The translations under genes and the position numbers were made by a program. A stretch of DNA of 64,000 nucleotides, from NCBI RefSeq assembly GCF_000219875.1, contig NC_017167.1:662765-726764 (forward strand), in the 5' to 3' direction. Shown here in pieces: positions 13,653 through 34,035 of this stretch (the stretch's first letter is position 1; every line of letters begins with the position of its first letter). Below the pieces are notes generated by a model that saw only the letters and a program-made list of their open reading frames with translations, made no database searches and had not been told where the DNA came from. This DNA is from Alicyclobacillus acidocaldarius subsp. acidocaldarius Tc-4-1 (GTDB taxonomy: Bacteria; Bacillota; Bacilli; Alicyclobacillales; Alicyclobacillaceae).

Positions 13653-13679
13653 AAACAAAAATAAAACAACACAAAACAG
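13653..13679 (+). promoter_or_regulatory. Candidate operator (A-rich AAACA repeats) at the rhaB promoter
   Basis: AAACA occurs at 13653, 13664 and 13674, i.e. spaced 11 and 10 bases, so on one face of the helix. It covers the -35 position of the promoter whose TATAAT is at 13691. Closely similar sequence lies at 21926-21950 and at 34004-34035. It is a candidate site for the DeoR-family regulator encoded at 30205. Confidence 0.5.
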
Positions 13680-13696
13680 ATTTGTTCGTGTATAAT
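13668..13696 (+). promoter_or_regulatory. Promoter of the rhaB operon
   Basis: Perfect TATAAT at 13691-13696. The -35 position lies in A/C-rich sequence and is weak, as expected for a regulated promoter overlapped by the AAACA repeats. The distance to the rhaB start is about 36 bases. Confidence 0.55.
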
Positions 13697-13731
13697 CACT
13701 CTTGTGAGAACCCTTTCATGAGTGTGCGGGG

Positions 13732-15213
13732 GTGAGTCGAGTGCTTCATGTCGCTGCGGTCGATCTCGGCGCATCCAGCGGCCGCGTCATGCACGGCATG
13801 TTCGACGGATCGCGACTTGCACTGGAGGAGCGCCACCGATTTTCGACTCGCCCCGTCAAGCGCGACGGCCACCTGGTCGTCGATGTCGACCATCTGTATC
13901 GCGGTATCCAAACAGGTCTCGGGTGCATTGTGTCTGCGCATCCAATCGCGTCGGTGGGGATTGACTCGTGGGCCGTGGACTTCGGCCTGATTGACGAAGC
14001 GGGACGGCTCGTTCAGCCACCGCGTCACTACCGGGACGGCGCCCACGAGGTCGGCGTCCGCCGCGCGCTGGAGCGCATCTCGCTCGAGGACCTGTTTCGC
14101 GAGACGGGCATTCAATTTCTTCCGTTCAACACCATCTATCAGTTGATGTCGTTGCAAGACGAGAACGAAACGCTTTTGTCGAGGAGCCGTTTGCTTCTGC
14201 TTTTGCCTGATCTCTTGAATTTCATGTTGACGGGCGTCGCGCACGCGGAGTGGACCAATGCCACCACGACCCAGCTTGTGTCGGTGCGCACGAAGGGATG
14301 GGCCACCGAGGTCTTGGAGCGGCTAGGATTGCCCGCGAGTCTCTTCCCGGAAATCCGGAGCCCCGGCACTTCACTCGGCCCGGCTCGCCACCTGGTGGAG
14401 ATTGGACCGCCACAGGTGGTGCACGTCGCCTCCCACGACACGGCCTCCGCGGTCGTGGCCGTCCCGGCGATGGGCCAACCGTACCTCTACATCAGCTCAG
14501 GAACCTGGTCGCTCGTCGGAACCGTGGTGCCAGAGCCCATCGCGTCGGATGATGCGCTTCGGTGGAACTTTTCGAACGAGGGCGGCGTGGGCAATTACCG
14601 TTTACTTAAGAACGTCATGGGCCTGTGGCTTCTCCAGGAGCTCGAGCGCGAATGGGCGACAAGGGGCGAGCCGGTATCGCTGCCCCAGATGTTGCAGGAA
14701 GCCCAGCGTGCCCAACCGTTTGCTCATCTTTTCGATCCCGACCACCCTCGATTTCTCCGTCCGCCATCCATGACGGAGGCCATCCAACAGGCGGTGAAGG
14801 AATGGGGAGGCCATCCGCCGGAGGAGCGAGGCGAAATGGTTCGAGCGGTCCTCGAGTCGTTGGTGCTCAAGTACCGCGTCGTGGTGGAAGAAGTGAAAGC
14901 TCTCACAGGGTTTCACTACGACGCCTTGCACGTGGTCGGGGGTGGCTCGCAAAACGCGCTTCTCTCCCAGTGGACGGCGGATTGCTTGGGTCTTCCGGTG
15001 CTCGCTGGCCCCTCGGAGGCGAGCGCGTGGGGAAACGCGCTGATGCAGCTCGTCGCTCTCGGCGAGATATCGAATTTGGAAGAAGCGAGAGCGCTCCTGC
15101 GGTCATCCGTTACGCTTCGCACGTACGAGCCGGCAAATACGGCATTGTGGGAAGACGCATACGCGTGTTTTCGCGAGCGCCTGAGCCATCATCCGACACT
15201 GGCGAACTCGTGA
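13732..15213 (+). CDS. rhaB: L-rhamnulokinase (FGGY family)
   Basis: 493-aa sugar kinase that should phosphorylate L-rhamnulose at C1. The FGGY phosphate-binding loop is seen at the N terminus (AVDLGASSGRVMHG), with the substrate segment SVGIDSWAVDFGLID, ISSGTWSLVG in the middle and the C-terminal ATP-site motif VVGGGSQNALLSQWTADCLG. Length matches RhaB. Two GTG starts are possible, 13732 and 13741, with a G-rich ribosome site next to the first. It is the first gene of a G+C-rich pair with the aldolase/dehydrogenase gene 17 bases downstream. Confidence 0.88.
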   Translation: MSRVLHVAAVDLGASSGRVMHGMFDGSRLALEERHRFSTRPVKRDGHLVVDVDHLYRGIQTGLGCIVSAHPIASVGIDSWAVDFGLIDEAGRLVQPPRHYRDGAHEVGVRRALERISLEDLFRETGIQFLPFNTIYQLMSLQDENETLLSRSRLLLLLPDLLNFMLTGVAHAEWTNATTTQLVSVRTKGWATEVLERLGLPASLFPEIRSPGTSLGPARHLVEIGPPQVVHVASHDTASAVVAVPAMGQPYLYISSGTWSLVGTVVPEPIASDDALRWNFSNEGGVGNYRLLKNVMGLWLLQELEREWATRGEPVSLPQMLQEAQRAQPFAHLFDPDHPRFLRPPSMTEAIQQAVKEWGGHPPEERGEMVRAVLESLVLKYRVVVEEVKALTGFHYDALHVVGGGSQNALLSQWTADCLGLPVLAGPSEASAWGNALMQLVALGEISNLEEARALLRSSVTLRTYEPANTALWEDAYACFRERLSHHPTLANS

Positions 15214-15230
15214 TCAAGGAGGAAACTGCT

Positions 15231-17273
15231 GTGATTGTCACACAGGAAACCACCGTTCTCCAGGAGCTTGTCGACCGATCTCGCCGCCTCGGCGCGGATC
15301 GCAGCGTATGCAATTGGGGTGGGGGAAACACGTCCGCCAAGACCACCATGCTCGATCACATGGGCCGCGAAATCCGCGTCATGTGGGTGAAAGGCAGCGG
15401 TTCCGACCTCGCCGAGGCGACGGAGAAGAGCTTCACCGCGCTTCGGCTCGACGAAGTGCTGCCGCTCATGGAGCGCGACGCGATGACGGACGAGGAGATG
15501 GTCGACTACCTCGCCCACTGCATGGTGGAGGCCAAGCATCCGCGATCGTCCATCGAGACTCTGCTTCACGCCTTCATCCCGCACGCGCATGTGGATCACA
15601 CGCACCCGGATAGCATCATTGCCATCTGCACGAGCACCAACGGGCGCGAGGTGGCCAAGGAGATTTTCGGCGATCGCGCTGTGTGGGTCCCGTACCTGCG
15701 CCCGGGGTTCGCTTTGTCCAAGCTCGTCGCGGAGGCCGTGCGGGCGAATCCCCATTGCGAGTGCGTGCTGATGGAGAAGCATGGCCTCATCACCTGGGGC
15801 GAAACGTCCGAAGCCTGCTACGCCAACACCATGCGCATCATTGGTGAGGCTGCGGAGTATCTGAAGGCGAAACAGCGGGGGCGCCTGGCCTTCGGCGGTG
15901 TGAAACATCCCGCGCTGCCGCAGGAAGAACGGCGGCGCATCGCTGTGCAGATCCTGCCCTTTGTCCGAGGCATCGTGAGCGAACGGCAAGGCGCTATTCT
16001 CTCCTACGATGACAGCCCCGAATTTCTCGAATTCGCGGGCAGCCACGATGCGCCGTCGCTCTCGCAGGTCGGTGCGGCCTGTCCGGATCACCTCGTTCAT
16101 ACCAAGCGTCGGCCGTTGTTTGTGGATTGGTTCCCTTCCGAAGGCGTCGACGCGCTGAAAGAAAAACTGAGGGCGGCGCTTACGGCCTATCGGGACGACT
16201 ATGCGGCCTATTACGAACGGAACGTAGATCTCGACGTGCCCATGCACGATCCGTTTCCGCGCATCATCCTGATTCCGGGGCTCGGCGCTATCGGCACGGG
16301 CAAGAACAAGAAAATGGCGAACATTGCGCTCGATCTGTACCGGAGAGCCATCGCAGTCATGCGCGGCGCGACGGCGCTCGGCGAGTTCGTATCGCTCAGC
16401 GAGAAGGAGTCGTTTGACGTCGAGTATTGGCCGCTCGAGCTCTACAAGCTGACGCTCGCGCCACCGGAGAAGGAGTTGTCGCGCAAGGTCGCGTACATCA
16501 CCGGTGGGGCAGGCGGGATCGGCAGCGCCACCGCGCGGCGCCTTGCGGAAGAGGGTGCGCACGTCGTGATCGCGGATCTCGCCGTGGACGCGGCCCGGCA
16601 ACTTGCCGACGATCTCTGCACCGAGCACGGCCCAGGCGCGGCCATCGGGGTTGCGCTCGACGTGACCCAAGAGGAGGCGGTCGTGCGATCCATCGAGGAG
16701 GCCATCCTGGCCTACGGCGGGATCGATCTCTTCGTCTCGAACGCGGGCCTCGCCAGCTCGGCGCCTATCACCGAGACCTCGCTCGAAGAGTGGAACAAGA
16801 ACGTCGCGGTGCTCGGGACGGGTTACTTCCTGACGTCGCGGGAAGCGTTCCGCGTGATGGTGGAGCAGGGCTGCGGCGGCGCCATGGTCTTCGTCACGTC
16901 GAAGAATGCCGTGTACGCAGGCAAGGACGCGTCCGCGTACAGCTCCGCGAAAGCCATGGAGAATCACCTCGCGCGTTGCTTGGCCGTCGAAGGTGGGCCG
17001 CACGGCATTCGGGTGAACATCGTGCTTCCCGACGCGGTGCTGCAAGGATCGCACATCTGGAACTCGGCCTGGCGCGAGGAGCGCGCGCGCGCGTACGGCA
17101 TTGCGCCTGAGGAGCTCGAGGACTACTACCGCAGTCGGACCATCCTCGGCGTGAACATCTTGCCCGAGGACATCGCGGAAGCCATCCTGTTCTTCTGCTC
17201 GCCGAGATCGGCCAAAACGACCGGATGCATGCTCACGGTGGACGGAGGCGTCGCCGCCGCGTTCCCGCGGTGA
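15231..17273 (+). CDS. rhaEW: Bifunctional rhamnulose-1-phosphate aldolase / L-lactaldehyde dehydrogenase (RhaEW type)
   Basis: 680 aa. The N-terminal half (about 1-420) is a class II aldolase/adducin domain that splits L-rhamnulose-1-phosphate to DHAP and L-lactaldehyde; metal-site histidines are visible in HAFIPHAHVDHTHPDS. The C-terminal half (about 425-680) is a short-chain dehydrogenase with AYITGGAGGIGSATARR, a catalytic Ser in FVTSKNAV and Tyr/Lys in AYSSAKAMENH, expected to oxidise lactaldehyde to L-lactate. This fusion is known from Bacillus rhamnose operons. GTG 15231 follows AAGGAGG (15216-15222). It is the last G+C-rich gene before the first A+T-rich block. Confidence 0.9.
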   Translation: MIVTQETTVLQELVDRSRRLGADRSVCNWGGGNTSAKTTMLDHMGREIRVMWVKGSGSDLAEATEKSFTALRLDEVLPLMERDAMTDEEMVDYLAHCMVEAKHPRSSIETLLHAFIPHAHVDHTHPDSIIAICTSTNGREVAKEIFGDRAVWVPYLRPGFALSKLVAEAVRANPHCECVLMEKHGLITWGETSEACYANTMRIIGEAAEYLKAKQRGRLAFGGVKHPALPQEERRRIAVQILPFVRGIVSERQGAILSYDDSPEFLEFAGSHDAPSLSQVGAACPDHLVHTKRRPLFVDWFPSEGVDALKEKLRAALTAYRDDYAAYYERNVDLDVPMHDPFPRIILIPGLGAIGTGKNKKMANIALDLYRRAIAVMRGATALGEFVSLSEKESFDVEYWPLELYKLTLAPPEKELSRKVAYITGGAGGIGSATARRLAEEGAHVVIADLAVDAARQLADDLCTEHGPGAAIGVALDVTQEEAVVRSIEEAILAYGGIDLFVSNAGLASSAPITETSLEEWNKNVAVLGTGYFLTSREAFRVMVEQGCGGAMVFVTSKNAVYAGKDASAYSSAKAMENHLARCLAVEGGPHGIRVNIVLPDAVLQGSHIWNSAWREERARAYGIAPEELEDYYRSRTILGVNILPEDIAEAILFFCSPRSAKTTGCMLTVDGGVAAAFPR

Positions 17274-17325
17274 GGCGCCTTCTATTAAGGTCCATTTAAA
17301 AAAGCACCTTTCGAATGGAGGCTTG

Positions 17326-18284
17326 ATGAGGTGGATGAAATATAGAAAGCTTTTGTCATTAGATGTCTCTATTTTAGGTCTCGGGGCATCGCCATTCGGT
17401 GGAGTGTTTGGAGGTGTTGAGGAAAGTTCGTGCATTAAGTGCGTTTACGCGGCGCTGGACGGGGGGATAAATTATATAGATGTTGCACCTTATTATGGTA
17501 ATACTCGAGCGGAGACAATATTGGGTAAAGCGCTTCGAGGAGTACCCCGCGATCGGTATGTGCTCTCCACCAAGGCCGGGAGAATAAGCGAATCTCATTT
17601 TGATTTTTCCGCCGGGCATCTAAAGCGGAGTGTAGAACAGAGCCTACGTCGGCTTGGAACAGACTACGTTGATATTTTATACATACATGACATAGAGTTT
17701 GCACATCCACAACAGATTTTTGAAGAAGCTATTCCGTGTGCAATGAGGTTAAGGGATGAGGGAAAGGTGCGCTTTGTGGGGGTTTCCGGATATCCGCTTA
17801 CTGTTCTTGAACGAACGTTAGATAATAGTGATATAGAAATTGTGCTTTCTTACTGTCATTATACCCTTATTGACAACAGTCTTCTGGGTTTAATTCCTAA
17901 GGTAAAACCAAGGGAGTAGGATTGGTTAATGCATCTCCGCTAGGAATGGGTCTCTTGACTGAAGTTGGTCCCCCCTCTTGGCATCCAGCTGAAAATAGAT
18001 TGCGGACGGTTTGTAAGACTGCGTCAGACTACTGCATACGACACGGGACAAGTATTGCAAAGATAGCTCTCCAATTCTCTGTGAGTAATGAAGACATTCC
18101 AACGACGCTGATTGGGGCAGCAACTCCGGAAACGATTATGCAGAACATAAAGTGGATTGAGGAGCCACTGGACGGAGAGTTGTTAGGAGAGATGAAGAGC
18201 CTCCTCAGCGATGTTCAAGGTATTACTTGGAGTAGCGGAAATGAGGAAGAGTGGAGTAGTATGGGTGAATATACAAATGATTAA
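17326..18284 (+). pseudogene. Aldo/keto reductase, likely aldose (L-fucose/L-galactose) dehydrogenase, one frameshift
   Basis: The first part (17326-17919) gives an AKR barrel start: LGLGASPFGGVFGG, then DVAPYYGNTRAE with the catalytic Asp/Tyr pair, STKAGR with the Lys and DILYIHDIEFAH. It stops at TAG 17917. The rest of the barrel (NASPLGMGLLTEVGPPSWHP to the end at 18284) is in another frame. Adding one A to the A4 run at 17904-17907 restores one continuous protein through KGVGLVNASPLGMGL. AKRs of this type oxidise L-fucose, L-galactose or similar aldoses to the lactone. This is a strongly A+T-rich gene: 23 of 60 bases are G/C at 17461-17520, against 48 of 60 at 16501-16560. Confidence 0.75.
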
Positions 18285-19293
18285 AGTGCAATGTGAGCGC
18301 CCATTTCAATTTCGTGTGTTGAACTGTGAGCCTATTTCGCGCGGCCAAGGGGAAGTGCTAGTCCGCGTAAAGCGTGTGGGTATTTGTGGGACAGATTTTC
18401 ACGCATACCGTGGGGAGCAGCCGCTCGTTACGTACCCACGAGTCCTCGGGCATGAGGTTGCAGGTGTTGTTGAAGATGTAGATTCAGGCGCTTCTCCGTT
18501 TTCTACGGGAGAGGTCGTGTGCCTATTTCCGTACAGGTCGTGTGGCAACTGTAAGGCCTGCCTACGAGGTAAGCCTAATTGTTGCAGAGCTCTCGATGTG
18601 ATCGGTGTAACGTCCGACGGAGGCATGAGTGAACTGATATCCGTTCCAGAATCTCAACTGGTAAGCTGTAACGGGCTTGACCTTGATCAAGCAGTCATTG
18701 TGGAGCCGCTCAGTATCGCAGCACATGCAGTGCGCAGAGCTTCCGTATCGAATGGCGACCACGTCCTCGTCATTGGGGCAGGTCCTATTGGAATTGCTGT
18801 TGCTCGGCTTGCAGCGCTTCGTGGAGCACACGTGTATATCACTGACCTCCGGCGTGACCGTCTAGAAGCAGCCGCGCAGTGGTGTGGGCCAGACCACGTA
18901 AATGTAATTCCAGGCGATATATCTTTGCAAGTGACGCGTGACTTGACAGCGGGCGACATGATGGAGATTGTGTTCGACGCGACGGGAAATAAACAGTCTA
19001 TGGAGTTTGCTTTGCAGTATGTGGGCCATGGTGGGCGTTTGGCCTTGGTTGGAATTGTACAAGATTCTTTGTGTTATCCGCATCCTGAAATTCATAAGAG
19101 AGAACTCACCTTATTGTCGTGTCGAAACGCCTTACGCGAGGACTTCCAATATGTCATCGAGCTCATGCGGAACAAGAAAATCGCGGTGGATGGGTACATC
19201 ACACATAGAGCTATGCTATGCGACGTCAAACACGTATGGACAGAGTGGGAGCTTTCGATGCGCAATATGGTAAAAGGTGTGTTTGAAGTATGA
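18277..19293 (+). CDS. Zinc-dependent medium-chain dehydrogenase (sugar or aldonate dehydrogenase)
   Basis: 338 aa of the MDR family. The catalytic zinc site is indicated by VGICGTDFHAY and LGHEVAG. The structural zinc lobe has Cys residues in CGNCKACLRGKPNCC. The NAD(P)-binding fold is VLVIGAGPIGIAVARLAA. Closest in style are L-threonine/sorbitol/L-galactonate dehydrogenases (COG1063), so oxidation of an aldonate or polyol is plausible. ATG 18277 begins just before the AKR stop; GTG 18265 is an alternative start. It is A+T-rich and sits in a three-gene cassette with the AKR and lactonase. Confidence 0.78.
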   Translation: MIKVQCERPFQFRVLNCEPISRGQGEVLVRVKRVGICGTDFHAYRGEQPLVTYPRVLGHEVAGVVEDVDSGASPFSTGEVVCLFPYRSCGNCKACLRGKPNCCRALDVIGVTSDGGMSELISVPESQLVSCNGLDLDQAVIVEPLSIAAHAVRRASVSNGDHVLVIGAGPIGIAVARLAALRGAHVYITDLRRDRLEAAAQWCGPDHVNVIPGDISLQVTRDLTAGDMMEIVFDATGNKQSMEFALQYVGHGGRLALVGIVQDSLCYPHPEIHKRELTLLSCRNALREDFQYVIELMRNKKIAVDGYITHRAMLCDVKHVWTEWELSMRNMVKGVFEV

Positions 19294-19323
19294 AAACTTA
19301 TTTTTTGATTGGAGAGGAATAAA

Positions 19324-20196
19324 GTGCCAGAACTGAAGCGCATAGATGCACATCAGCATTATTGGCGTATTGCACGGGGGGACTACGATTGGATGACAGC
19401 CGATATGAGATCGATTCGAAGGGACTACCTCCCTGAAGATTTAATGCCATCCCTAATTAAGCATAACTTTTCCGGCAGTATAGCGGTGCAAGCAGCTGCT
19501 ACGTATGAAGAGACTAACTTTCTTCTTGACCTTGCTGCGTCGGATTCCACTATTCTAGGTGTTGTTGGGTGGGTAGATCCGTATGATGAGCAGTGGATGA
19601 CAAGGATCGAGGCATATCGAAGAATACCTAAATGGCGGGGCTATCGGCTGATGGTGGAGTACTTGGACAATCCATATAGTCTTTTAGAGGGAACGAGTAA
19701 AGAGTTACTTATATACTCCTCACTAGAAAACATTTCAATAGACATCTTGGTTCGCTGTGACCAATTGAGCTTCGTGTTAGACCTCATCGACCGATTTCCG
19801 AATCTTAGAGTCATTCTTGACCACATGGGAAAGCCCACAATGAAACCAGAAGACTTTTCGCGTTGGGCAGAGTGTATCAAACAAATATCTTCCAACAAGA
19901 GGGTATACGTAAAAATATCAGGGATGGTAACAGAAGCAAAAAGAAGCTATGGGTGTTATATGCCTGATTTTGATTTCCATCCATATATCGATCATGTCGT
20001 CGATGTATTCGGACCACGACGGGTTGTATTTGGTAGCGACTGGCCTGTATGCCTTCTGGCGACTGGCTACAGCGAGGTTGTAGAAATAGTTGAGAGATAT
20101 CTTCAATCGAGGATGGATGCGTCCTTGTGGGAAGGTTTGTGGGGAACAAACGCTGCAGAATTTTATGGTCTTCAACGGGTGAGTGGAGATGTCTGA
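19324..20196 (+). CDS. Amidohydrolase-type sugar lactonase (L-fuconolactonase/L-rhamnonolactonase family)
   Basis: 290 aa, TIM-barrel metal hydrolase of the COG3618 group. The metal-binding HxH is in [11 protein letters not shown], later His residues are in VILDHMGKP, and the conserved Asp is in [10 protein letters not shown]. Family members open sugar lactones such as L-fucono-1,5-lactone or L-rhamnono-1,4-lactone. GTG 19324 is chosen, with GGAGAGGA (19311-19318) five bases upstream. It is A+T-rich and translationally coupled, as its end overlaps the araB start by 8 bases. Together with the AKR it would convert an aldose to the aldonate. Confidence 0.8.
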
Positions 20197-21874
20197 GTAT
20201 TCGATCGGCGTGGACTACGGCACACAGTCTGGCCGCGCCGTTCTCGTGGAGATCGGGACCGGGCGCGAGATCACCAAGGCGGTCAAAAATTACACGCATG
20301 GCGTGATGGACGAGTACCTGCCGGATGGGGTGACGCGCCTCGGACCCGACTGGGCGCTCCAGCATCCGCGCGATTATGTGGAGGTCCTCGAGGAGACGAT
20401 TCCTCGGCTTCTCCGCGAGTCGGGCGTGCGGCCGGAGGACGTGATCGGCATCGGCATCGACTTCACGTCGTGCACGATGCTGCCCATTCGCGCGGACGGC
20501 ACGCCGCTCTGCTTGGAGCCGCGCTTTGAACGGCATCCGCACGCGTACGTGAAGCTCTGGAAGCACCATGCCGCGCAGGACGAAGCGAACAAGTTGAACG
20601 AGATTGCGCGCGAGCGCGGGGAGGCGTTTCTCGCGCGCTACGGCGGCAAGATCTCGTCGGAATGGATGATCCCGAAGATCTGGCAAATCCTCGACGAGGC
20701 GCCGGAGATCTACGATGCGGCGGACGCCATGGTGGAGGCGACCGACTGGATCGTCATGCAACTGACGGGCAAGCTCGTGCGCAGCTCGTGCCCGGCGGGG
20801 TACAAGTCCATCTGGCACAAGCGGACGGGGTATCCGAGCCGCGACTTCTTCAAGGCTCTTCATCCGCGCCTGGAGCACGTCGTGGAGGAGAAGCTCTGGG
20901 GGCCTATCCTGCCCATCGGATCGCGGGCAGGGGAGCTGACGGAGGCGATGGCGCGCCGCATAGGACTGGTGCCTGGGACGCCGGTGGCCGTGGGCAACGT
21001 GGATGCGCACGTGTCGATGCCGGCAGTCGGGATCACCGAGCCGGGCAAGATGCTGATGATCATCGGCACGTCGACCTGCCACGTCCTGTTGGGGACGGAG
21101 GAGCGCGCGGTGCCAGGCATGTGCGGCGTGGTGGAGGATGGCATCATTCCGGGGTACATGGGGTATGAGGCTGGGCAGTCCTGCGTCGGAGACCACTTCG
21201 AGTGGTGGATTGAAAACGGGGTGCCGCCGGCGTACTGGGACGAAGCGCGGCGCGAGGGCATCGGCATCCATGATCTCCTGACGCGCAAGGCGGCGAAGCT
21301 GAGACCGGGCGAGACGGGCCTTCTCGCACTCGACTGGTGGAACGGGAACCGATCCACGCTCGTCGACGCGGACCTCACGGGTCTTCTAATCGGCGCGACG
21401 CTCGCCACGAAGCCAGAGGATATCTACCGGGCGCTGATTGAGGCGACAGCGTACGGCACGCGGATGATTGTCGAGACCTTCCGGGCGAGCGGCGTGCCGG
21501 TCGACGAGATGTACGCGTGCGGCGGGATTGCGCAGAAGAACGCGCTGATGATGCAGATCTACGCGGACGTGCTCAACATGCCCATCTACATCGGCGCATC
21601 GACGCAGGCGCCGACGCTCGGAGCGGCGATGTTTGGCGCTGTGGCGGCGGGGAAGGCGCGCGGCGGATACGACTCCATTGAGGAGGCGGCGCGGGAGATG
21701 GGCAGCGTGCGCGAGAAGCCGTACGTTCCGAACCCGAGCGCCGTCAAGGTGTACGACGAGCTGTACCGCGAGTACACGCGCTTGTACGACTACTTCGGCC
21801 GCGGCGAAAACAATGTGATGAAGGTGCTGAAGCGCATCAAGAGCGCCGTGGCGCAGGAAGAGGTGAAGATATAG
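20189..21874 (+). CDS. araB: Ribulokinase-type FGGY kinase (AraB)
   Basis: 561 aa, the length of ribulokinase rather than of the roughly 490-aa rhamnulokinases. The N-terminal [16 protein letters not shown] is typical of AraB, and [20 protein letters not shown] is the C-terminal ATP motif. The mid-region [13 protein letters not shown] is also characteristic. It phosphorylates L-ribulose in arabinose catabolism; in this setting it may act on another ketose. ATG 20189 lies within the lactonase stop region. It is distinctly G+C-rich, unlike the genes on both sides, so it is an island of host-like composition between two A+T-rich blocks. No araA or araD is present in the window. Confidence 0.85.
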
Positions 21875-21925
21875 TGAGGGAACCGAACAAAAGAAAACAA
21901 ACATTTAAGAGCTAAATAAAGATAT

Positions 21926-21950
21926 AAACAGATAGAAAACCACAAAAACA
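21926..21950 (+). promoter_or_regulatory. Candidate operator (AAACA repeats) ahead of the sugar ABC operon
   Basis: AAAC repeats at 21926, 21937 and 21946 match the rhaB site base for base over much of its length (both have AAAC, then AAAAC, then an ACAAAACAG-like core). They lie directly upstream of a good promoter. Further AACAAAA repeats occur at 21886-21903. Confidence 0.5.
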
Positions 21951-21951
21951 G

Positions 21952-21980
21952 TTGATTTGAAGTGTTGTGTGTAGTACACT
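21952..21980 (+). promoter_or_regulatory. Promoter of the sugar ABC transporter/fucose operon
   Basis: TTGATT (21952-21957) and TACACT (21975-21980) have a 17-base spacer. The A-rich operator abuts its upstream edge. The first start codon (TTG 22028) follows GAGGAGAGGGG. Confidence 0.6.
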
Positions 21981-22027
21981 GAAAGTTAGAAAGCGATTTC
22001 AACTCGCTCTGAGGAGAGGGGTTTCAC

Positions 22028-23503: not shown

Positions 23504-23539
23504 CTACGTACGATACTTGTCAACAGGGGTGAAGTGCAT

Positions 23540-24547: not shown

Positions 24548-24564
24548 TCCGCTTGATCATAAAA

Positions 24565-24685: not shown

Positions 24686-24720
24686 AAATCACTTCAAAAA
24701 GAGTTCTGAGGGGCGATGAG

Positions 24721-25761: not shown

Positions 25762-25814
25762 GTATCTCGGTGGGCACAGGTCGAGCACCTGTGCCCACGC
25801 AAGGAGTGATCAGG

Positions 25815-27578
25815 ATGCAGTTCAACTTGAAGATCGGCATTAGGCCAATAGTTGATGGTCGCTTCGGAGGTATTAGAGAAAGCCTGGAACCTATTACCAT
25901 GCAAATGGCTCATCGTGTGGGTGAGCTGCTCCGCACGCATGTACGCAAGCCAGACGGAAGCCCCGTCGAGTGCCTTGTTCCTGATTTTTGCATTGGAGGG
26001 GTCGCTGAAGCTGTAAAGGCGGACAAGTGGTTTGCTTCTCAGGGCGTCGCGGCAGTGATTTCGGTAACTCCGTCTTGGTGCTATCCGCTTGAGACAATTT
26101 TTAGAGATAGAACAATTCCGCAAGCGATATGGGGCTTCAATGGTACAGAACGCCCAGGAGCGGTTTACTTGTCCGCAGCGGTTGCTGCACTGTCGACTTT
26201 AGGTATACCGGTTTTCGCAATATACGGTTCGGACGTACAAGATGTGAATGATGCGACTTTACCGGCCGACGTACAGCGAAAGCTAATACAATTTGCTAAG
26301 GCGGCTACGTCTGTGGCAGCAATGAAAGATAAGTCATACCTGTCGGTCGGATACGTGTCGATGGGGATCGCGGGTTGCCTGATCGACGAATCGTTCTTTA
26401 GTGATTATTTGGGCATGAGAGTCGAGTATGTGGATATGACGGAGTTTGTGCGCAGAATAGAACGGGGGATTTTTGATCCCGATGAGTTGGAGCGGGCGCT
26501 TAAGTGGGTACAGAAGTATTGCAAAGAGGGAGATGACCGAAATCCTCCCGCGGAGCGACGTAGCAAAGCTCAGAAGGATAGGGATTGGGAGTTCGTTGTG
26601 AAAATGACCCTCATCATGAAGGATTTGATAGAAGGGAATGATAGACTGAAAGGGCTCGGTTACCCAGAAGAGTCTTTCGGGCATGCGGCTATCGCGGCCG
26701 GGTTTCAGGGTCAAAGATCTTGGAGTGACCACTTTCCAATTAGCGATTTTATGGAGAGCATCCTATGTTCGTCCTTCGACTGGAACGGGCCCAGGCGTCC
26801 TTACATAGTGGCGACGGAGAATGATTCGTTAAATGCGGTATCCATGCTATTCGGATATCTACTCACAGGAACAGCTCAAATATTTGCAGATGTTCGAACC
26901 TACTGGAGTCCAGAAAGTATTCAAAGGGCAACAGGATGGAAGCCTACTGGCCAATCGGAAAATGGATTTCTACACCTCATCAATTCAGGGCCAGCTGCGT
27001 TGGATGGCACCGGCGCTGCAACTCGAGATGGCAAGCCGGTCATAAAGCCATTCTGGGAGATGACGGAACAGGACATCGAATCCTGTCTAGAATCGGTGAC
27101 TTGGTGTCCTGCCTATGACTATTTCAAGAATGGGGGATTTTCTTGTAGATATGTAACAAAAGGTGGGATGCCAGTAACCATTATACGGTTGAATAGGATT
27201 CGTGGAGTAGGTCCTGTGCTTCAATTGGCAGAGGGTTACACGATCGATCTTCCACCTGAGGTAAGTCGAACTATCGACGAACGAACCAATCCGACGTGGC
27301 CAAGTACGTGGTTTGTGCCGAAATTAACCGGCAGTGGCGCCTTTGAGTCGGTTTATACGGTGATGGACAATTGGGGGAGCAATCATTGCGCGATATGTTA
27401 TGGACATATCGGTTCGGAACTCATCACCCTAGCGTCGATGTTGAGAATCCCAGTGCCCATGCATAATGTAGAGAGCTCGAGAATCTTCAGGCCGAGAGTT
27501 TGGTCACAGTTTGGTCACGACGACGGCATCGGGGCTGATTTCCGAGCCTGTGCTGCATTTGGTCCGCTGTACGCGTGA
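25815..27578 (+). CDS. fucI: L-fucose isomerase
   Basis: 587 aa, the length of FucI (about 590). It converts L-fucose to L-fuculose in the cytoplasm and also acts on D-arabinose in known enzymes. The start [25 protein letters not shown] is diagnostic. Metal and substrate region residues are seen in [32 protein letters not shown] and the C-terminal [30 protein letters not shown] precedes ATG 25815. It is A+T-rich, starting about 50 bases after the binding-protein gene. It is not a RhaA-type L-rhamnose isomerase, which is shorter and different in sequence. Confidence 0.93.
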
Positions 27579-27614
27579 GAAAGCTGCCTGAACGCTACAA
27601 GGGGTATGGAAGAT

Positions 27615-29072
27615 ATGGCCTATAACGTGGTCGCGGTCGACCTGGGATCCACGAGTGGTAGAGTTTATCGGGTTAGCTTTGACGGCAGGAAACTGTACCT
27701 GTCCGAAATTCATCGCTTTTCCAATGGCCCAGTTGTGACAAGTGGATCGGTAGCGTGGAATTTATATCGGATTATCGATTCTGCCTTAATGGGACTAAGA
27801 AAAGCACTTGAGATGTCAAATGTGATATCAGTGGCAATTGACAGTTGGGGGGTCGATTTTGGAGTATTCACAGTTTCGGGTGAATGTTCAGGGGTAGTTT
27901 CTTGTTATAGGAACCCAAAAAACGAAGAATACGTACAGCATATTCGAAGGAAAGTGCCAGAATCGTTGGTATACAAAAATACAGGTATACCTATTAGCGG
28001 CATTAACACTTCGACTCAGCTTGTGAGAATGCTTGATAATCATGAGGTGGTTGAGGGTAGAGTCCTTTTTATCGCGGGAATATTAGCAAACAAGCTGTGT
28101 GGAAGTTGGGCAGTGGAACGTTCGATTGCCAGCACTACTCAACTTTACAATCAGCATATAGGCGAGTGGGACGGGGCCTTGGTGAGCGCGTTGGGTATCC
28201 GAGACATCATACTACCGGACATCGTAACACCCGGCTCTGTCTTGGGTGAACTAACTATACCCGAGCAAAGGACTCGTGCTAAGGTCATCTCAGGGTTGGA
28301 ACATGATACGCAAGCGGCGACGTTCTGTCTAGGGCCTGATTCCGAGGAGTTGTTCATCTGTTCCGGAACTTGGTCGCTCGTCGGAACGACCCTAAGTCGG
28401 CCTGTACTCTCTGAAGCCGCAATGAACGCGAAGTGGTCGAACGAAAGAGGGTTTTGGGGAATAGATTTCCTGAAAAATCTTCCTGGAATGTGGATCATGG
28501 AACGGCTGTTTTCAGAGATGTCTATGCCCCGCGAGGGGCTGGATGACATCATACTTAAAGCAGCTGCGTCCGATAAATTTCAGTTTTTATTTGACATTAC
28601 AGATCCTCGCTTCTTTTCACCAAGCAGCATGATATCTGAACTGAAGCATTATGCGAAGGAAATGGATCTAGCGCTTCCTGACGAAATACCTGTTTTGTAC
28701 AGATCTTTTTTAGAATCCTTAGTGATGACGTATAAAGACGCTATTAGAGAAATGATTGAACTTACAGGAGAGATACCCAAGAATGTAAGACTTATGGGAG
28801 GGGGTGCAAAGAATCGATTGCTAGCAAAGATGATCGCCGATGCGACGGGTTTGCCCGTCGTGAGGGGCCCGGCTGAGGCGAGCGTCGTCGGAAACGCATT
28901 GGTGCAGCTAGTCGCGAATGGGCTTGTCGATGCATCAGATGTTTCGGCAGTCGCATCGAGTGTTGGAGAATTGGAGGTTGTCGAGCCATCTCCTTCAGAA
29001 AAGCAGATTTGGGACGACATGTACGATAAATATTGGACAAAAAGGTATCGAATAGAGGGGTACCATGGATAA
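27615..29072 (+). CDS. FGGY kinase of the rhamnulokinase/fuculokinase type (probable L-fuculokinase)
   Basis: 485 aa. RhaB-like features are VAVDLGSTSGRVYRVSFDG, VAIDSWGVDFGVF, FICSGTWSLVGTTLSRP and LMGGGAKNRLLAKMIADATG. Its place between fucI and the aldolase gene argues for phosphorylation of L-fuculose at C1, although by sequence it resembles RhaB more than E. coli FucK. It is a second paralogue of the window's rhaB but A+T-rich. ATG 27615 is preferred to 27606 because the AAGGGG site is better spaced. The stop overlaps the next start by 8 bases. Confidence 0.85.
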   Translation: MAYNVVAVDLGSTSGRVYRVSFDGRKLYLSEIHRFSNGPVVTSGSVAWNLYRIIDSALMGLRKALEMSNVISVAIDSWGVDFGVFTVSGECSGVVSCYRNPKNEEYVQHIRRKVPESLVYKNTGIPISGINTSTQLVRMLDNHEVVEGRVLFIAGILANKLCGSWAVERSIASTTQLYNQHIGEWDGALVSALGIRDIILPDIVTPGSVLGELTIPEQRTRAKVISGLEHDTQAATFCLGPDSEELFICSGTWSLVGTTLSRPVLSEAAMNAKWSNERGFWGIDFLKNLPGMWIMERLFSEMSMPREGLDDIILKAAASDKFQFLFDITDPRFFSPSSMISELKHYAKEMDLALPDEIPVLYRSFLESLVMTYKDAIREMIELTGEIPKNVRLMGGGAKNRLLAKMIADATGLPVVRGPAEASVVGNALVQLVANGLVDASDVSAVASSVGELEVVEPSPSEKQIWDDMYDKYWTKRYRIEGYHG

Positions 29073-29748
29073 CATAGACGCTCTGTGTACAGTACTGAGA
29101 GTTCTAGCGGACAATGGTTTCGTCTACGGGCCGGGAGGCAATGCAAGTATTCGACTAGACGACAAGACCATAGCGATCACCGCATCAGGATCCTCGTTCG
29201 ACTCATTGGTTAGGGATAATTTTGTAAAGGTGAATCTTGAATCAGGTGAGTGCTGTGTAAGTGGGGCTCCTCGTCCCAGTTCCGAGACGTCTATGCATCT
29301 AGCGATTTACAGGACGCATCCAAAAGTGAATGTTGTTCTACACACACACCCTACCTACTGTATCGCTCTGTCCACGGTAAGTGATGAGTTGCCCATTTTA
29401 TTCCCGGACCAGGCTGCGCTGGTAGGCAAGACGAAAGTGCTTCGATACATGTTGCCGACTACAGAGCAATTTGGGAGATCGGTGGCAATGGAGCTGGTGA
29501 AATCTAATGTTTGTTCATTGATTTTGCAAAACCATGGTCTAGTGGTGACCGGAAGCACTGTCCTGCAGGCTTTCTATCGAACACAAATTGTTGAGCAGGC
29601 ATGTAAAATCTACTTAAGTGCGCTCTCTACCCGTGAGAAGGTGCGTGAGTTATCTCAGGAAGAAATTTTGGAGATACAAAACCTAGAAGCTGAGAGATAT
29701 CGAAACCAAATGTTGACTCAGTACAAGCGGTTTTGGACCGAGGTGTGA
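29065..29748 (+). CDS. fucA: L-fuculose-1-phosphate aldolase (class II aldolase/adducin family)
   Basis: 227 aa zinc aldolase cleaving L-fuculose-1-phosphate to DHAP and L-lactaldehyde. The phosphate-binding region is GPGGNASIRLDDKTIAIT and TASGSSFDSL. Zn ligands are His residues in VVLHTHPTYCIA and a later His in LILQNHGLVVTG; the acidic residue is in SSETSMHLAIYR. Its length suits FucA. It overlaps the kinase gene and precedes fucU by 3 bases. The lactaldehyde produced would feed the dehydrogenase half of RhaEW and then LutABC. Confidence 0.88.
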   Translation: MDNIDALCTVLRVLADNGFVYGPGGNASIRLDDKTIAITASGSSFDSLVRDNFVKVNLESGECCVSGAPRPSSETSMHLAIYRTHPKVNVVLHTHPTYCIALSTVSDELPILFPDQAALVGKTKVLRYMLPTTEQFGRSVAMELVKSNVCSLILQNHGLVVTGSTVLQAFYRTQIVEQACKIYLSALSTREKVRELSQEEILEIQNLEAERYRNQMLTQYKRFWTEV

Positions 29749-29751
29749 CAG

Positions 29752-30201
29752 GTGCTAAGAGGTGTGCCAGCTGCCTTGACTTCCGACGTAGTTTATGTGC
29801 TCCACTGCATGGGACACGGTGATGAATTGGCGATATGTGATGCCAATTTCCCAGCATATGCTAACGGCTGTAAAGTAATCGATACGGGATATTCGTCTGT
29901 TCCTGAGCTTTTAGGTTATGTCCTAAGGATCTTCCCATTAGATGATTATAGTCCAGTCAACAGCGCAGTGATGATGAAGGAGGAGAGGGATCGTCAGCTT
30001 CCTACTCCTGCGCGTGATCGGATTATCTCTCTGTTGCAAGAATACTGTGACGGTGAGTCACGAATTGAGGAGCTACCGAGAGAAGCATTCTATGAAAGAT
30101 CGAGAAAAGCTTATGCCATCATTCGAACCGGGGATACCAGCTTGTATGCCAACGTGATTATCAAAAGGGAGTCCTTACTGAGGTATAGGCAGAGGAAGTG
30201 A
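29752..30201 (+). CDS. fucU: L-fucose mutarotase (FucU/RbsD family)
   Basis: 149 aa. It interconverts alpha and beta anomers of L-fucose so that the right anomer reaches FucI. Family motifs are LHCMGHGDELAICDANFPA near residue 20 (with the conserved His and Asp), SPVNSAVMMKEERD, and the C-terminal YERSRKAYAIIRTGDTSLYA followed by NVIIK. GTG 29752 follows GAGGTG. It is the last A+T-rich gene of the island; the DeoR regulator 3 bases downstream is G+C-rich, marking a sharp composition boundary near 30200. Confidence 0.9.
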   Translation: MLRGVPAALTSDVVYVLHCMGHGDELAICDANFPAYANGCKVIDTGYSSVPELLGYVLRIFPLDDYSPVNSAVMMKEERDRQLPTPARDRIISLLQEYCDGESRIEELPREAFYERSRKAYAIIRTGDTSLYANVIIKRESLLRYRQRK

Positions 30202-30204
30202 ACC

Positions 30205-30981
30205 GTGCGAATGCTCCCAGCCGAACGACAGCGAGCCATTCTCCAATACCTGAACGAACGCGGCAGCATCCGCGTGAAAGAACTCAGCCGCATGTTCTCC
30301 GTGACCGAAGAGACCGTGCGACGGGATTTACACATCCTCGAGATGGAGGGCAAACTGCGCCGCAGCCATGGCGGCGCAGTTCGCATTGACGACGATACGC
30401 CAGCGGAGACATCTTATTTGATTCGAGAGTCCGAGCACGTTCCGGAGAAGATGGCCATTGCGCGAACCGCCATCACGTATGTCGAGCCGGGCGACAGCAT
30501 CATCCTGGACGCGAGCAGCACCGCGCTGCACGTGGCAAACGCGCTGCCTAACATTCCGATTACGGTCTTGACCAATTCGCTCAAGGTCGCGATGGAGCTC
30601 GCGTCCAAGGACAAAATCGAAGTGATTTCCACAGGTGGAATTCTTCGAGCGAGCTCTCTCTCGTACGTCGGGCCCATGGCGGAAGAGGCCATCAGCCGCT
30701 TTCACGTGAACAAGGCCTTTCTCTCGTGCAAAGGCGTCCACGTCGAGCACGGCTTCACAGAGTCGAACGCCCTTCAGGCTCTCGTGAAGCGGAAGATGGT
30801 CGAGATCGCCGACACGCTGGTTCTGCTCGCGGATCACAGCAAGATTCAGGCGCGGGACTTTACGAAGGTCGGCGATGTGGACGAGATCGATCTGCTCATC
30901 ACCGACCAGGAGACGAGCGAGGAGGACGTGCGGACCTTCGAGGCCGCTGGGGTGCGCGTGGTGCGCGGCCGGATGGAGTGA
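30205..30981 (+). CDS. DeoR-family transcriptional regulator of 6-deoxyhexose genes (RhaR-like)
   Basis: 258 aa. The N-terminal DeoR helix-turn-helix begins ERQRAILQYLNERGSIRVKE and continues SVTEETVRRDLHILEMEGKLRR followed by SHGGAV. The C-terminal sugar-phosphate sensing domain has ILDASSTALHVANAL, TGGILRASSLSYVGP and LLADHSKI. Bacillus rhamnose genes are controlled by a DeoR-family RhaR, and the position next to this operon fits that role. The AAACA repeats at 13653, 21926 and 34004 are its candidate sites. GTG 30205 (AGGAAG upstream) or ATG 30211 may be the start. It is G+C-rich and intact. Confidence 0.85.
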   Translation: MRMLPAERQRAILQYLNERGSIRVKELSRMFSVTEETVRRDLHILEMEGKLRRSHGGAVRIDDDTPAETSYLIRESEHVPEKMAIARTAITYVEPGDSIILDASSTALHVANALPNIPITVLTNSLKVAMELASKDKIEVISTGGILRASSLSYVGPMAEEAISRFHVNKAFLSCKGVHVEHGFTESNALQALVKRKMVEIADTLVLLADHSKIQARDFTKVGDVDEIDLLITDQETSEEDVRTFEAAGVRVVRGRME

Positions 30982-31033: not shown

Positions 31034-31034
31034 T

Positions 31035-31706
31035 TTATGGCGATGTGCGGTCGCGCAGAAGGAAACAGATCACACGGGCGGGGCCGTGCACGCCAATGGT
31101 CTGATCGTTCTCGATGTCCGAGGATCGGCTCGGGCCGCTGATGAAGTGCACGTACGCGGGGAGGTGCCCGCCGAGGGCGCGATCGCGGAGGCGTGCCATC
31201 ACGTCGCCCAGGCTCTGCACAACCTGGCTCTCCCGCATCACCACGAGGTGAACGAGCGGGACCTGGTGCACCGTGCGGCCAGCCGCCCCGCCGGTCTCCA
31301 CGACGATGGTCCCTGTGTCCGCGACGCCGAAGCTCGCGCCGGTGATGCCGACGTCGATCTCCACAACCGGGGCCTCGCCGAATCGCCGCACGCCCCACCG
31401 TTCGATCACGTCCTCCACATCCGCGGGCCAGGGCGCCTCCTTGCCCCAAGCGCCGACGGTCCGTGGGTTGAGAGCCTCCAGCGTCCGGTCGAGGGCCGCA
31501 CACAGGGCCGCCTCGTCTTCGCAGCGGATCACCTCGCCCGCGAGCGCCTCGAACTTCGCGCAGAACGCCACGATCCGCTCCTCCTGGCTCGTCCTGCGAT
31601 CCGCCCAGAATTCGGGCGCCCCGACGGCCTCGCGGGGCGCGGGGGCGGACCCGGGCTCGCGGCCGAGCCGCGCGGCGATATGCGCCAAAAATGCTGACTT
31701 ATCCAC
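31035..31706 (-). CDS. lutC: L-lactate utilisation protein LutC
   Basis: 223 aa, third subunit of the LutABC iron-sulfur L-lactate oxidase system (cytoplasmic), which turns L-lactate to pyruvate. The LUD domain is seen as VEIDVGITGASFGVADTGTI, VVMRESQVVQSLGD and YVHFISGPSRSSDIENDQTI, ending with GPARVICFLLRD. GTG 31706 overlaps the lutB 3' end by 8 bases. It is a member of the lutA-lutB-lutC minus-strand operon. It is required with LutB for growth on lactate in B. subtilis; its precise role is not settled. Confidence 0.92.
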   Translation of the reverse strand: MDKSAFLAHIAARLGREPGSAPAPREAVGAPEFWADRRTSQEERIVAFCAKFEALAGEVIRCEDEAALCAALDRTLEALNPRTVGAWGKEAPWPADVEDVIERWGVRRFGEAPVVEIDVGITGASFGVADTGTIVVETGGAAGRTVHQVPLVHLVVMRESQVVQSLGDVMARLRDRALGGHLPAYVHFISGPSRSSDIENDQTIGVHGPARVICFLLRDRTSP

Positions 31707-33117
31707 GCCTCGTCCCTCTCTTTCGCGTCATCCACCATTCGCGAAACGTCTGGCTGCCAAGCGCGGGGAAGTCGCGCCTCTCCGTCCAGCCAGCGAGTGG
31801 ACCAATTTTCGCCCGAATGACGCCATCGCGCGCGAAACCACCCTGCAGGCGCCGCGCCACGCGGATGGCGCCGAGGTAACGGCGGTGATCCGCAAACGTG
31901 ACGGCGTAGGCGGTGAACGCCGCCTTTTCGCCCGTCTTGCCGCCGGTATTGGCCACGAAGCGCTGTCGCTCCTTGACGAGCATGTCGTGAAGCGGAATCT
32001 TGACCGGGCACGCCTCATAGCACGCGCCGCACAGGCTCGAGGCGTACGGCAGATCCTGATACGCCTCCCCGCCCTCAAGCAGTGGCGACAGCACGGCGCC
32101 GATGGGCCCGGGATAGACCGATCCGTACGCGTGGCCGCCGATCTGCCGATAGACGGGGCAGACGTTCAGGCACGCGCCGCAGCGGATGCAGTGGAGCACG
32201 GCCTGAAAGTCGGGATCGCCCAATTGGCGGGATCGGCCGTTGTCGAGGATGATGACGTGCATCTCTTCGGCGCCGTCGGCATCTCTGTCCCGGCGCGGGC
32301 CGGTGACCATCGACAGGTAGGTGATGGTGTTCTGGCCGGTCGCGCTCTTCGGCAGGAGATGGGCAAACACCTCGAGGTCCTCGAGCGTAGGCAGAACGCG
32401 CTCCATGCCCATGAAGACGATGTGCGTCTTCGGCAGGTTGGCGACCAAATCCGCGTTGCCCTCGTTCGTGAAGAGCGCGATGGAGCCCGTCTCGGCGATC
32501 CCGAAGTTGCAGCCGGTGATGCCGATGTCGGCCGTCAGGTACATCTCGCGCAGCCGCTGGCGGGCGAACGCGACGAGATCGCGCGTCTCCGTGGTGAGGT
32601 TCTGGCCGCCGTCGGCCTCGAACAGCGCCTGGATCTGCTCCCGCGTCTTGTGGATGGCGGGAATGATGATGTGGGACGGGGTCTCGCCTGCCAGCTGCAC
32701 GATGTATTCGCCGAGATCGGTCTCGATGACCTCGACGCCGAGCGCCTCGAGGTGATGGTTGAGGTGGACTTCCTCGGTCACCATCGACTTCGACTTGACC
32801 ACGCGGCGCGCGGACTTCGCGCGTACGATGTCCGTCACCACGGCGAGCGCCTCGCGCGCGTCGGCGCAGAAATGCACATGCGCCCCGAGCCGCTCGAGGT
32901 TGTCTGCGAACTGCCCGAGGTAGTAGTCCAGGTTTTCGATGGTGTGCCGCCGAATGGCCTCGCCGCGATCGCGCCAGGCCTCCCAGTTGCCAAAGTCTTC
33001 GGTGACGGCCTGCTTGCGGTTGCGCAGCCGATCCGTCGTGAAGTGAACGGCTCCGCGCAGGAAGTCGTCGCGGAGGGCGAGCTTCGCGCGATCGCGCACG
33101 GACGAGTGGGCGCTCAT
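31699..33117 (-). CDS. lutB: L-lactate utilisation protein LutB (iron-sulfur)
   Basis: 472 aa. The N-terminal LUD domain (about 60-290: SKSMVTEEVHLNHHLEALG, ITGCNFGIAETGSIAL) is followed by two 4Fe-4S ferredoxin motifs, CIRCGACLNVCPVYR and CGACYEACPVKIPLHD. A C-terminal helical tail follows. It is the electron-transfer core of LutABC. It starts in an ATGA overlap with lutA and overlaps lutC by 8 bases, so the operon is translationally coupled. In this locus it would oxidise the L-lactate that arises from L-lactaldehyde during rhamnose or fucose breakdown. Confidence 0.94.
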   Translation of the reverse strand: MSAHSSVRDRAKLALRDDFLRGAVHFTTDRLRNRKQAVTEDFGNWEAWRDRGEAIRRHTIENLDYYLGQFADNLERLGAHVHFCADAREALAVVTDIVRAKSARRVVKSKSMVTEEVHLNHHLEALGVEVIETDLGEYIVQLAGETPSHIIIPAIHKTREQIQALFEADGGQNLTTETRDLVAFARQRLREMYLTADIGITGCNFGIAETGSIALFTNEGNADLVANLPKTHIVFMGMERVLPTLEDLEVFAHLLPKSATGQNTITYLSMVTGPRRDRDADGAEEMHVIILDNGRSRQLGDPDFQAVLHCIRCGACLNVCPVYRQIGGHAYGSVYPGPIGAVLSPLLEGGEAYQDLPYASSLCGACYEACPVKIPLHDMLVKERQRFVANTGGKTGEKAAFTAYAVTFADHRRYLGAIRVARRLQGGFARDGVIRAKIGPLAGWTERRDFPALGSQTFREWWMTRKRGTRRG

Positions 33118-33860
33118 GCGGTCACCTCCTCGGTGAGGCCGGCCGCTTCAGCCAAGAGTTCGGCGAGATGCATCACGCGCACGCGCGCGCCGCGGCGGGA
33201 GAGCGTGCCGCCGATGTTCATCAGGCAGCCCATGTCCGTGGACACGAGCACGTCGGCGCCCGACGCGACGACGTTGTCTGCCTTCTCGTCCGCCATGGCG
33301 CTCGAAATTTCACTCATTTTCACCGAGAACGTGCCGCCGAAACCGCAGCAGTCGCGGGCGTAAGGGAGCTCGACGAGCTCCAGATCCCGCACGTGGCGCA
33401 GGAGCTCGAGGGGTTCCTCGCGGACGCCGAGCAACCGCGAGCCGTGGCAGGACGGGTGGAACGTGACGCGATGCGGAAAGCGGCCGCCGAAGTCCACCTT
33501 GCCCAGGTGGTTGACCAGAAATTGGGAGAGTTCATAGGTCTTCTCCGCCAACCGCATGGCTTCATCGGCGAGGGCTGGATCGCCCGCGAAGAGCGCCGGG
33601 TAATAGTGGCGAATCATGCCGACGCACGATCCGGAAGGGCTCACGACGGCGTCGGCGTCGGCAAACGCCTCGAGGAGCGTGCGAGCAACGTGGCGGGCCT
33701 CGTCAGCGTAGCCGCTGTTGAAGGCGGGTTGGCCGCAGCAGGTCTGCCCGATGGGGAATTCGACCTCGCAGCCGCTCGCCTCGAGGAGGCGCGTCGTGGC
33801 GATGCCGACCTTCGGAAACACGGCATCGACGATACAGGTGACAAACAAGCTCACTTTCAT
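33114..33860 (-). CDS. lutA: L-lactate utilisation protein LutA (CCG domain)
   Basis: 248 aa with two cysteine-rich CCG motifs, GQTCCGQPAFNSG (about residue 38) and RDCCGFGGTFSVKMSE (about residue 170), characteristic of heterodisulfide-reductase-like subunits. It begins MKVSLFVTCIVDAVFPKVG. It is the first gene of lutABC on the minus strand; a GGAGG lies just before ATG 33860. The promoter at 33995-34024 carries the A-rich repeats shared with the sugar operons, which points to coregulation instead of the GntR regulator LutR used in B. subtilis. Confidence 0.93.
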   Translation of the reverse strand: MKVSLFVTCIVDAVFPKVGIATTRLLEASGCEVEFPIGQTCCGQPAFNSGYADEARHVARTLLEAFADADAVVSPSGSCVGMIRHYYPALFAGDPALADEAMRLAEKTYELSQFLVNHLGKVDFGGRFPHRVTFHPSCHGSRLLGVREEPLELLRHVRDLELVELPYARDCCGFGGTFSVKMSEISSAMADEKADNVVASGADVLVSTDMGCLMNIGGTLSRRGARVRVMHLAELLAEAAGLTEEVTA

Positions 33861-33994
33861 GGCGTAGGACCTCCATGACCGCGGCCGGACAAGCCGCGGT
33901 CGGTCACTTCACAGGATGTCTCATATCCAGTGTAGCGCTTACAGGCGCGGCGCGCACCGATAGAGACACGGGGTCGGATATCGTGACAAGGGTC

Positions 33995-34035
33995 ATTATA
34001 GCGAAACAAAAAGAAATAAAGCAACGAAAATCAAC
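33995..34035 (-). promoter_or_regulatory. lutABC promoter with AAACA-repeat operator
   Basis: On the minus strand TATAAT is the complement of 33995-34000, and TTGCTT (complement of 34019-34024) is the -35 at 18-base spacing. Between and beyond them the plus strand reads AAACAAAAAGAAATAAAG (34004-34021) and then ACGAAAATCAAC, closely like the sites at 13653 and 21926. The remaining sequence in 33861-34137 shows no gene. Confidence 0.5.

Follow-up and report, generated by a model that had tools for sequence, protein, structure and literature searches.

A deoxy-sugar utilization locus of Alicyclobacillus acidocaldarius Tc-4-1 with a probably exchanged middle section

We analyzed 64,000 nucleotides of the chromosome of Alicyclobacillus acidocaldarius subsp. 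acidocaldarius Tc-4-1 (contig NC_017167.1, positions 662,765 to 726,764; hereafter the window), which carry a locus for the use of 6-deoxysugars. Its outer genes, here called the frame, are rhaB and rhaEW on one side and a gene for a DeoR-family regulator with the lactate oxidation genes lutCBA on the other; the middle, or slot, holds predicted genes for the use of L-fucose and a ribulokinase gene, araB (Table 1). For comparison, a sample of 15 genomes of the genus, including that of the window itself (G000), was searched with FucI, RhaEW, DeoR, AraB, and RhaI. Within this sample G002 was taken as A. acidocaldarius DSM 446, and G010 as Alicyclobacillus mali NBRC 102425, the nearest named relative with the same fucose set.

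Table 1. Features of the locus, with positions in the window and the basis of each assignment. DNA homology to G002 refers to aligned pieces of more than 300 bases; matrix scores and shuffles are explained in the text.
Feature	Position	Strand	Basis
A-rich block before rhaB, candidate operator for the DeoR-family protein	13654..13681	+	28 bases, identical in G000, G002, G010, and G014
rhaB-type kinase (frame)	13732..15213	+	TIGR02627 469 bits, below equivalog cut-off 528; 91–93% to G002 and G010
rhaEW, bifunctional rhamnulose-1-phosphate aldolase/lactaldehyde dehydrogenase (frame)	15210..17273	+	NF006190 1187 bits and TIGR02632 955 bits, both over cut-off
Slot (probably exchanged middle), fucose set plus araB; rhaI and rhamnose-type ABC transporter in G002	17278..30192		DNA homology to G002 stops at 17278 and resumes at 30192
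Aldo/keto reductase gene, frame broken near 17.9 kb in this assembly	17323..18284	+	split over two ORFs that differ in frame; a single open frame in A. mali, PF00248
Zinc alcohol dehydrogenase (adh)	18211..19293	+	PF08240 and PF00107 over cut-off
Amidohydrolase related to L-fucono-1,5-lactonase	19309..20196	+	NF052480 237 bits, below cut-off 400; best PDB chain 4dlf, named Amidohydrolase 2
araB (ribulokinase), duplicate of the ara-operon gene	20183..21874	+	TIGR01234 798 bits, over cut-off; 97.3% nucleotide identity over 20198-21887 to G000:C1:3077652-3079337
Promoter-like gap between araB and the transporter, with weak A-rich block copies	21875..22030	+	matrix score 11.5 at 21886 (reached by 17/500 shuffles), 9.0 at 21927
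Sugar ABC transporter ATPase, N-terminal part in three frames in this assembly	22030..23503	+	family from the long C-terminal piece; intact ORF of 492 aa in A. mali
Sugar ABC transporter permease	23534..24547	+	no model over cut-off
Sugar ABC transporter substrate-binding protein	24721..25761	+	no model over cut-off
fucI, L-fucose isomerase	25758..27578	+	NF008220 953 bits and TIGR01089 892 bits, both over cut-off
FGGY kinase, rhamnulokinase group, probable L-fuculokinase (fucK)	27606..29072	+	TIGR02627 312 bits, below cut-off
Class II aldolase, probable L-fuculose-1-phosphate aldolase (fucA)	29065..29748	+	best PDB matches L-fuculose phosphate aldolase; all NCBIfam models below cut-off, best NF043034
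fucU-like mutarotase	29752..30201	+	NF011949 78 bits, below cut-off 141
DeoR-family regulator (frame)	30205..30981	+	87–95% identical in G002, G008, G010, G012, and G014
lutC, lutB, lutA, lactate oxidation (frame)	31035..33860	-	lutB TIGR00273 529 bits, over cut-off; lutA and lutC by neighborhood and partial matches
A-rich block in the gap upstream of lutA	34009..34036	+	matrix score 16.6, 0/500 shuffles; best further match in the window

Within the locus, rhaEW, araB, fucI, and lutB exceed the cut-offs of curated models, and the remaining assignments (rhaB, the second kinase, the aldolase, the mutarotase, the lactonase-like gene, and the transporter genes) were made from weaker scores together with gene neighborhood. 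The probable fuculokinase, fuculose-phosphate aldolase, and mutarotase belong to the right superfamilies, with scores all under the curated cut-offs, and are arranged as in Paenibacillus, where fucI is followed by a RhaB-like kinase gene and next by a FucA-like gene in 14 of 21 loci (some of them cut by contig ends).

The frame belongs to this species group. The order rhaB-rhaEW-slot-deoR-lutCBA was found in seven of the 15 genomes, on one contig in G000, G002, G004, G011, and G014 and across contig breaks in G008 and A. mali, and between these same flanks close relatives hold different middles, the pattern of a mosaic operon formed by displacement in situ. In G002, G008, and G011 the middle holds rhaI and an ABC transporter of the rhamnose type; its ATPase and permeases share 37–43% and its binding protein shares 30–32% identity with their counterparts in the window. 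The rhaI product of G002 exceeds the TIGR02635 cut-off (627 vs 531), and the best match of the G002 binding protein is RhaS (275, below the cut-off of 342). In G004 rhaI comes with a short middle, and the A+T-rich middle of G014 (L066:8706-15000) holds rhaI, an alpha-L-rhamnosidase gene with five Pfam domains, and transporter-like open reading frames (ORFs), of which a binding-protein-like ORF, the one tested, gave no Pfam match. Between rhaI and the rhamnose-type transporter of G002 lies a further small gene (L065:8410-8775) with an Anabaena sensory rhodopsin transducer domain (PF07100).

RhaEW is nearly full length in 12 of the 15 genomes (G001, G009, and G012 match only in the dehydrogenase half), and RhaI, found in nine genomes of the sample, is missing from three of these 12, namely G000, A. 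mali, and G005. FucI occurs in G000, A. mali, and G001. Neither genome with the fucose set has rhaI, and a protein search of the G000 and A. mali genomes found no rhamnose isomerase of either the RhaI or the RhaA type. Despite the absent rhaI, the resident rhaB still looks constrained, with dN/dS values of about 0.20 between G000 and A. mali and about 0.16 between G000 and G002. At the other end of the frame, lutC of G002 is split by a DDE transposase gene (PF01609; L065:14909-16609), which may impair the lactate operon of that strain.

A third state of the locus is seen in G012 (L075:6747-8349), where everything from rhaB through most of the rhamnose-type transporter is missing. Here ~270 bases separate dps from deoR, and they code for the C-terminal 32 residues of a rhamnose-type binding protein (78% identity, E 1e-15). 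A tree of rpoB joins G012 with G000 (98/98), with A. mali and G002 not firmly placed. Because of this transporter scar and the grouping of G012 with G000, the rhamnose middle would be the simpler choice for the older state. We consider it probable, at roughly 80%, that this is a resident deoxy-sugar regulon with an exchanged middle, in which the fucose set, with a host araB copy, took the place of rhaI and a rhamnose-type transporter in G000 and A. mali.

A preliminary description of the region had started from its base composition, and its account of the alternation of G+C-rich and A+T-rich blocks was borne out. Recounting returned exactly 48, 23, and 25 G/C in the sampled 60-base lines at 16501, 17461, and 23341, and the recomputed G+C of the five blocks is 0.626 (13653-17273), 0.471 (17326-20196), 0.650 (20198-21874), 0.477 (21880-30201), and 0.656 (30205-33860). 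The switches do fall at gene borders, and the DNA homology or copy ends at 17278, 20198, 21887, and 30192 lie at most ~12 bases from the proposed positions of about 17280, 20190, 21875, and 30200. Codon usage, checked as G+C at third codon positions, follows the same pattern, with 0.39–0.54 in the slot genes measured vs 0.73–0.87 in rhaB, rhaEW, araB, deoR, and lutABC. As background we took 300 kb from 20 places of the same chromosome (300 one-kb windows, mean G+C 0.617), in which nine one-kb windows fall below 0.52. The low run at 22001-30000 comprises eight consecutive such windows; the longest in the sample has four and lies at the edge of its stretch (L051), so that it may be longer. Because L051 and two further stretches of the sample, L055 and L059, are also A+T-rich, the mosaic is unusual but not unique. 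Continuous G+C-rich rhamnose genes in relatives, which the preliminary description had named as support, did not turn up: the transporter region of G002 has a G+C of 0.47–0.58, and the rhamnose-type and other middles of G002, G008, and G014 lie at ~0.46–0.58. We rejected composition alone as proof of foreignness, since the rhamnose middles of relatives are A+T-rich as well.

The one G+C-rich gene within the slot is araB, previously regarded as part of the resident rhamnose operon, and this view has to be given up: it is a second copy of an ara-operon gene and bears signs of gene conversion. The other copy stands in the ara operon ahead of araD- and araA-like genes (named from their translations). 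Two copies are present in G000 and one each in G002, G008, G012, and G014; G001 and G006 have two araB matches each, but at 50–54% identity. The two G000 copies differ at 45 of 1690 bases, and just five of these differences fall in the central 1247 bases (99.6% identical; P 1.5e-18, for tract borders chosen after seeing the data), with the first 100-base bin only 80% identical and a cluster of differences near the end. Paralogues that are near-identical in the center and less alike at the ends are the mark of ectopic gene conversion. Conversion rather than constraint would explain the clean center, because the ara-operon copy differs from the G002 araB more evenly, with 61 of 92 differences in the same central tract.

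A. mali has, as we infer, araB at the same place in the slot. No araB match was found in its assembly at E 1e-100. The fucose-set contig and the araD contig are identical over 74 bases of the araB end and diverge beyond it, and a third contig stops ~70 bases into araB, as expected if two near-identical copies collapsed in assembly. In both the G000 and the A. mali slot, araB is followed by bases resembling the araD start. Alternatively, an araB-like gene could have come with the fucose set from outside and then been overwritten by the host gene, instead of being copied in from the ara operon. The converted look of the center would agree with this, as would the araB-like kinases that follow fucI in G001 (49% identity) and in one Peptococcaceae locus (52%). 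We regard it as unlikely all the same, given that even the more divergent ends match the host gene, that the araD-start-like bases follow, and that araB here precedes the transporter and is not beside fucI. Among 53 FucI loci (52 loci and that of G001, several cut by contig ends), an araB-like gene stands beside fucI in two, at 49–52% identity, and this adjacency mildly supports a pairing of the two genes.

The A-rich block before rhaB, which has one change in G008 and related forms in G011 and G004, was used to build an operator matrix from the blocks of seven genomes, and intergenic gaps were tested against 500 shuffles. The block before lutA beats all 500 shuffles in G000, G002, G008, A. 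mali, and G014, and in A. mali the gap between araB and the transporter, at the same place as in the window, scores 21.3 (0/500). Gaps before the aldo/keto reductase and the binding protein gene hold no block (72/500 and 146/500). For scale, matches inside the slot coding sequence score 9.3 and 7.3, the maximum over all of block 2 is reached by 7 of 100 shuffles and is thus not exceptional, and an unrelated 20-kb ara region peaks at 4.6. From these matches, common control of rhaB and lutA is likely, and that of the slot with both is plausible. The DeoR-family protein would probably control rhaB, lutABC, and perhaps the slot through the A-rich block. The earlier proposal that regulation was kept through the exchange holds for the conserved regulator gene and the conserved block before rhaB; as regards the slot, the signals of common regulation are weak. 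Outside the region, the sole RNA-family match in the window is a c-di-AMP riboswitch at 46144-46276 (RF00379, 89.2 bits).

Synonymous divergence (dS) between G000 and A. mali, estimated by a simple counting method in which values above 1 are near saturation, varies both around and within the slot. In the flanks it amounts to 0.17 for cpa, 0.18 for rhaB, 0.35 for rhaEW, 1.02 for deoR, 0.73/0.48/0.49 for lutC/B/A, and 0.07 for yetF, with 0.37 for rpoB; in the slot it is 0.32 for adh, 0.42 for the lactonase-like gene, 1.59/1.24/1.09 for the three transporter genes, 0.72 for fucI, and 0.52–0.70 for fucK/A/U. Because the values are so uneven within the set, the exchange was not one simple event; the history of the locus is patchy and probably involved repeated recombination. 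In a quick FucI tree without bootstrap, the sequences of G000 and A. mali sit on a long stem apart from G001 and join only another long branch (L120), a meeting of long branches that the analysis flagged. No donor can be named from this tree. The product of fucK is 80% identical to that of A. mali and otherwise has no match above 36% identity in 59 genomes of the order (E<=1e-60).

These data also bear on the possibility of vertical inheritance, by which the fucose set would be old in the genus, lost elsewhere, and A+T-rich only as slot genes drift to lower G+C. The low G+C shared by other middle types would fit, and so would the divergence of adh and the lactonase-like gene, close to that of rpoB. 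The lack of closer fucK relatives beyond A. mali in those 59 genomes, the presence of fucI in just three genomes of the genus sample with the G000 and A. mali forms so far from that of G001, and the rhamnose-type scar kept in G012 make this account very improbable.

An exchanged middle thus remains our preferred reading, against which several observations weigh. The full frame was not seen in eight of the 15 genomes: G001, G009, and G012 lack rhaEW, G005 and G006 have the parts scattered or a different gap, G007 carries lut on the opposite side of rhaB, and the stretches fetched for G003 and G013 did not include lut. The fucose set is carried by only two of the 15, and rhaI is also absent from G001, G005, G009, and G012, all without the set. 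To these come the A+T-rich middles of relatives, the spread of dS inside the fucose set (from 0.32–0.42 to 1.1–1.6), an rpoB tree in which unequal base make-up was flagged in 11 of 15 rows, and the several enzymes that score under curated cut-offs. The slot-gap block is weak in the window and weaker in G002 (44/500), and a matrix scan found no convincing block upstream of the slots of G014 and G011. FucI and FucK searches and the FucI tree yielded no closely related sequence beyond A. mali and no donor of the fucose genes. The proposal that foreign cassettes entered a resident rhamnose operon is supported in part, by the resident outer genes with another middle in relatives and by the G012 scar; for the foreign origin itself, base composition is no proof.

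A last point against it is that the reading frames of two slot genes, encoding the aldo/keto reductase and the ABC transporter ATPase, are interrupted in this assembly, which could mean that the fucose set is non-functional in this strain and the slot a decaying island. This seems doubtful, as both genes are intact in A. mali and the FucI, FucK, FucA, and FucU frames are open in the window. Sequencing error is moreover a possible cause of the breaks, because spoVAD in the same window (35757-36782, over cut-off) also loses the C-terminus common to G002 and A. mali, near 36.7 kb, perhaps through an assembly error. A comparison of reading phases gives candidate breaks and no rate, and no excess of breaks is claimed for the slot.

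The likely role of the locus, as predicted from its genes, is the use of L-fucose and perhaps of D-arabinose. RhaEW converts rhamnulose-1-phosphate to dihydroxyacetone phosphate (DHAP) and L-lactate, and the routes for rhamnose and for fucose both pass through lactaldehyde (PMC3870299). In the locus, FucI would form L-fuculose, which the rhamnulokinase-like FucK and FucA would turn into DHAP and L-lactaldehyde; the resident RhaW domain would then oxidize lactaldehyde to L-lactate, and the resident LutABC would convert lactate to pyruvate. Because of this common lactaldehyde/lactate tail, the frame could take either sugar. An oxidative fucose branch tied to the slot was considered and rejected: an enolase-superfamily gene over the cut-off lies elsewhere in G000, A. 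mali, and G002 alike and thus does not track the slot. FucI also acts on D-arabinose. From that sugar it would yield D-ribulose, and the extra AraB may phosphorylate this to D-ribulose-5-phosphate. According to PMC12307932, AraB of EHEC accepts D-ribulose as a substrate, and some Escherichia carry a D-ribulokinase inserted in their fucose locus. DSM 446, for which the reverse sugar use is predicted, is reported to grow on rhamnose and to form no acid from D-arabinose (PMC3035248).

We can tentatively imagine a plug-in frame, in which the kinase, the lactaldehyde/lactate steps, and the DeoR switch stay fixed and interchangeable isomerase/transporter middles with the same operator set the 6-deoxysugar. 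The copy of the host AraB, kept in step with the ara operon by gene conversion, might then add D-arabinose use, in parallel to the DarK insertion of Escherichia.

Mosaic operons are a kind already known, arising by horizontal transfer and gene displacement in situ, in which resident genes are replaced by incoming ones while their neighbors stay. The present locus resembles them in this and differs in that a whole middle with another sugar specificity was probably exchanged and a host paralogue added. With the RhaEW-type rhamnose pathway (PMC3870299) it shares rhaB, rhaEW, and a DeoR-family regulator, and in relatives also rhaI and an ABC transporter; the window differs in having fucose genes instead of the isomerase and the rhamnose transporter. 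The DarK fucose locus, cited in PMC12307932, likewise has a pentulose kinase inside a fucose locus, but DarK is a separate D-ribulokinase, whereas the kinase here duplicates the host AraB and shows signs of gene conversion. Our literature search did not find this particular combination of an exchanged middle and a host araB copy.

For the reading of islands by composition, the locus is a caution that a G+C-rich “native” gene surrounded by A+T-rich sequence can be a duplicate from the same genome that gene conversion keeps similar. It offers a clear case of a sugar operon with a changed middle, as the rhamnose state, the fucose state, and a deletion scar all occur among close relatives, and probably of a sugar pathway swapped while the outer genes stay. 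For the organism, the predicted outcome is growth on fucose, perhaps on D-arabinose, and none on rhamnose.

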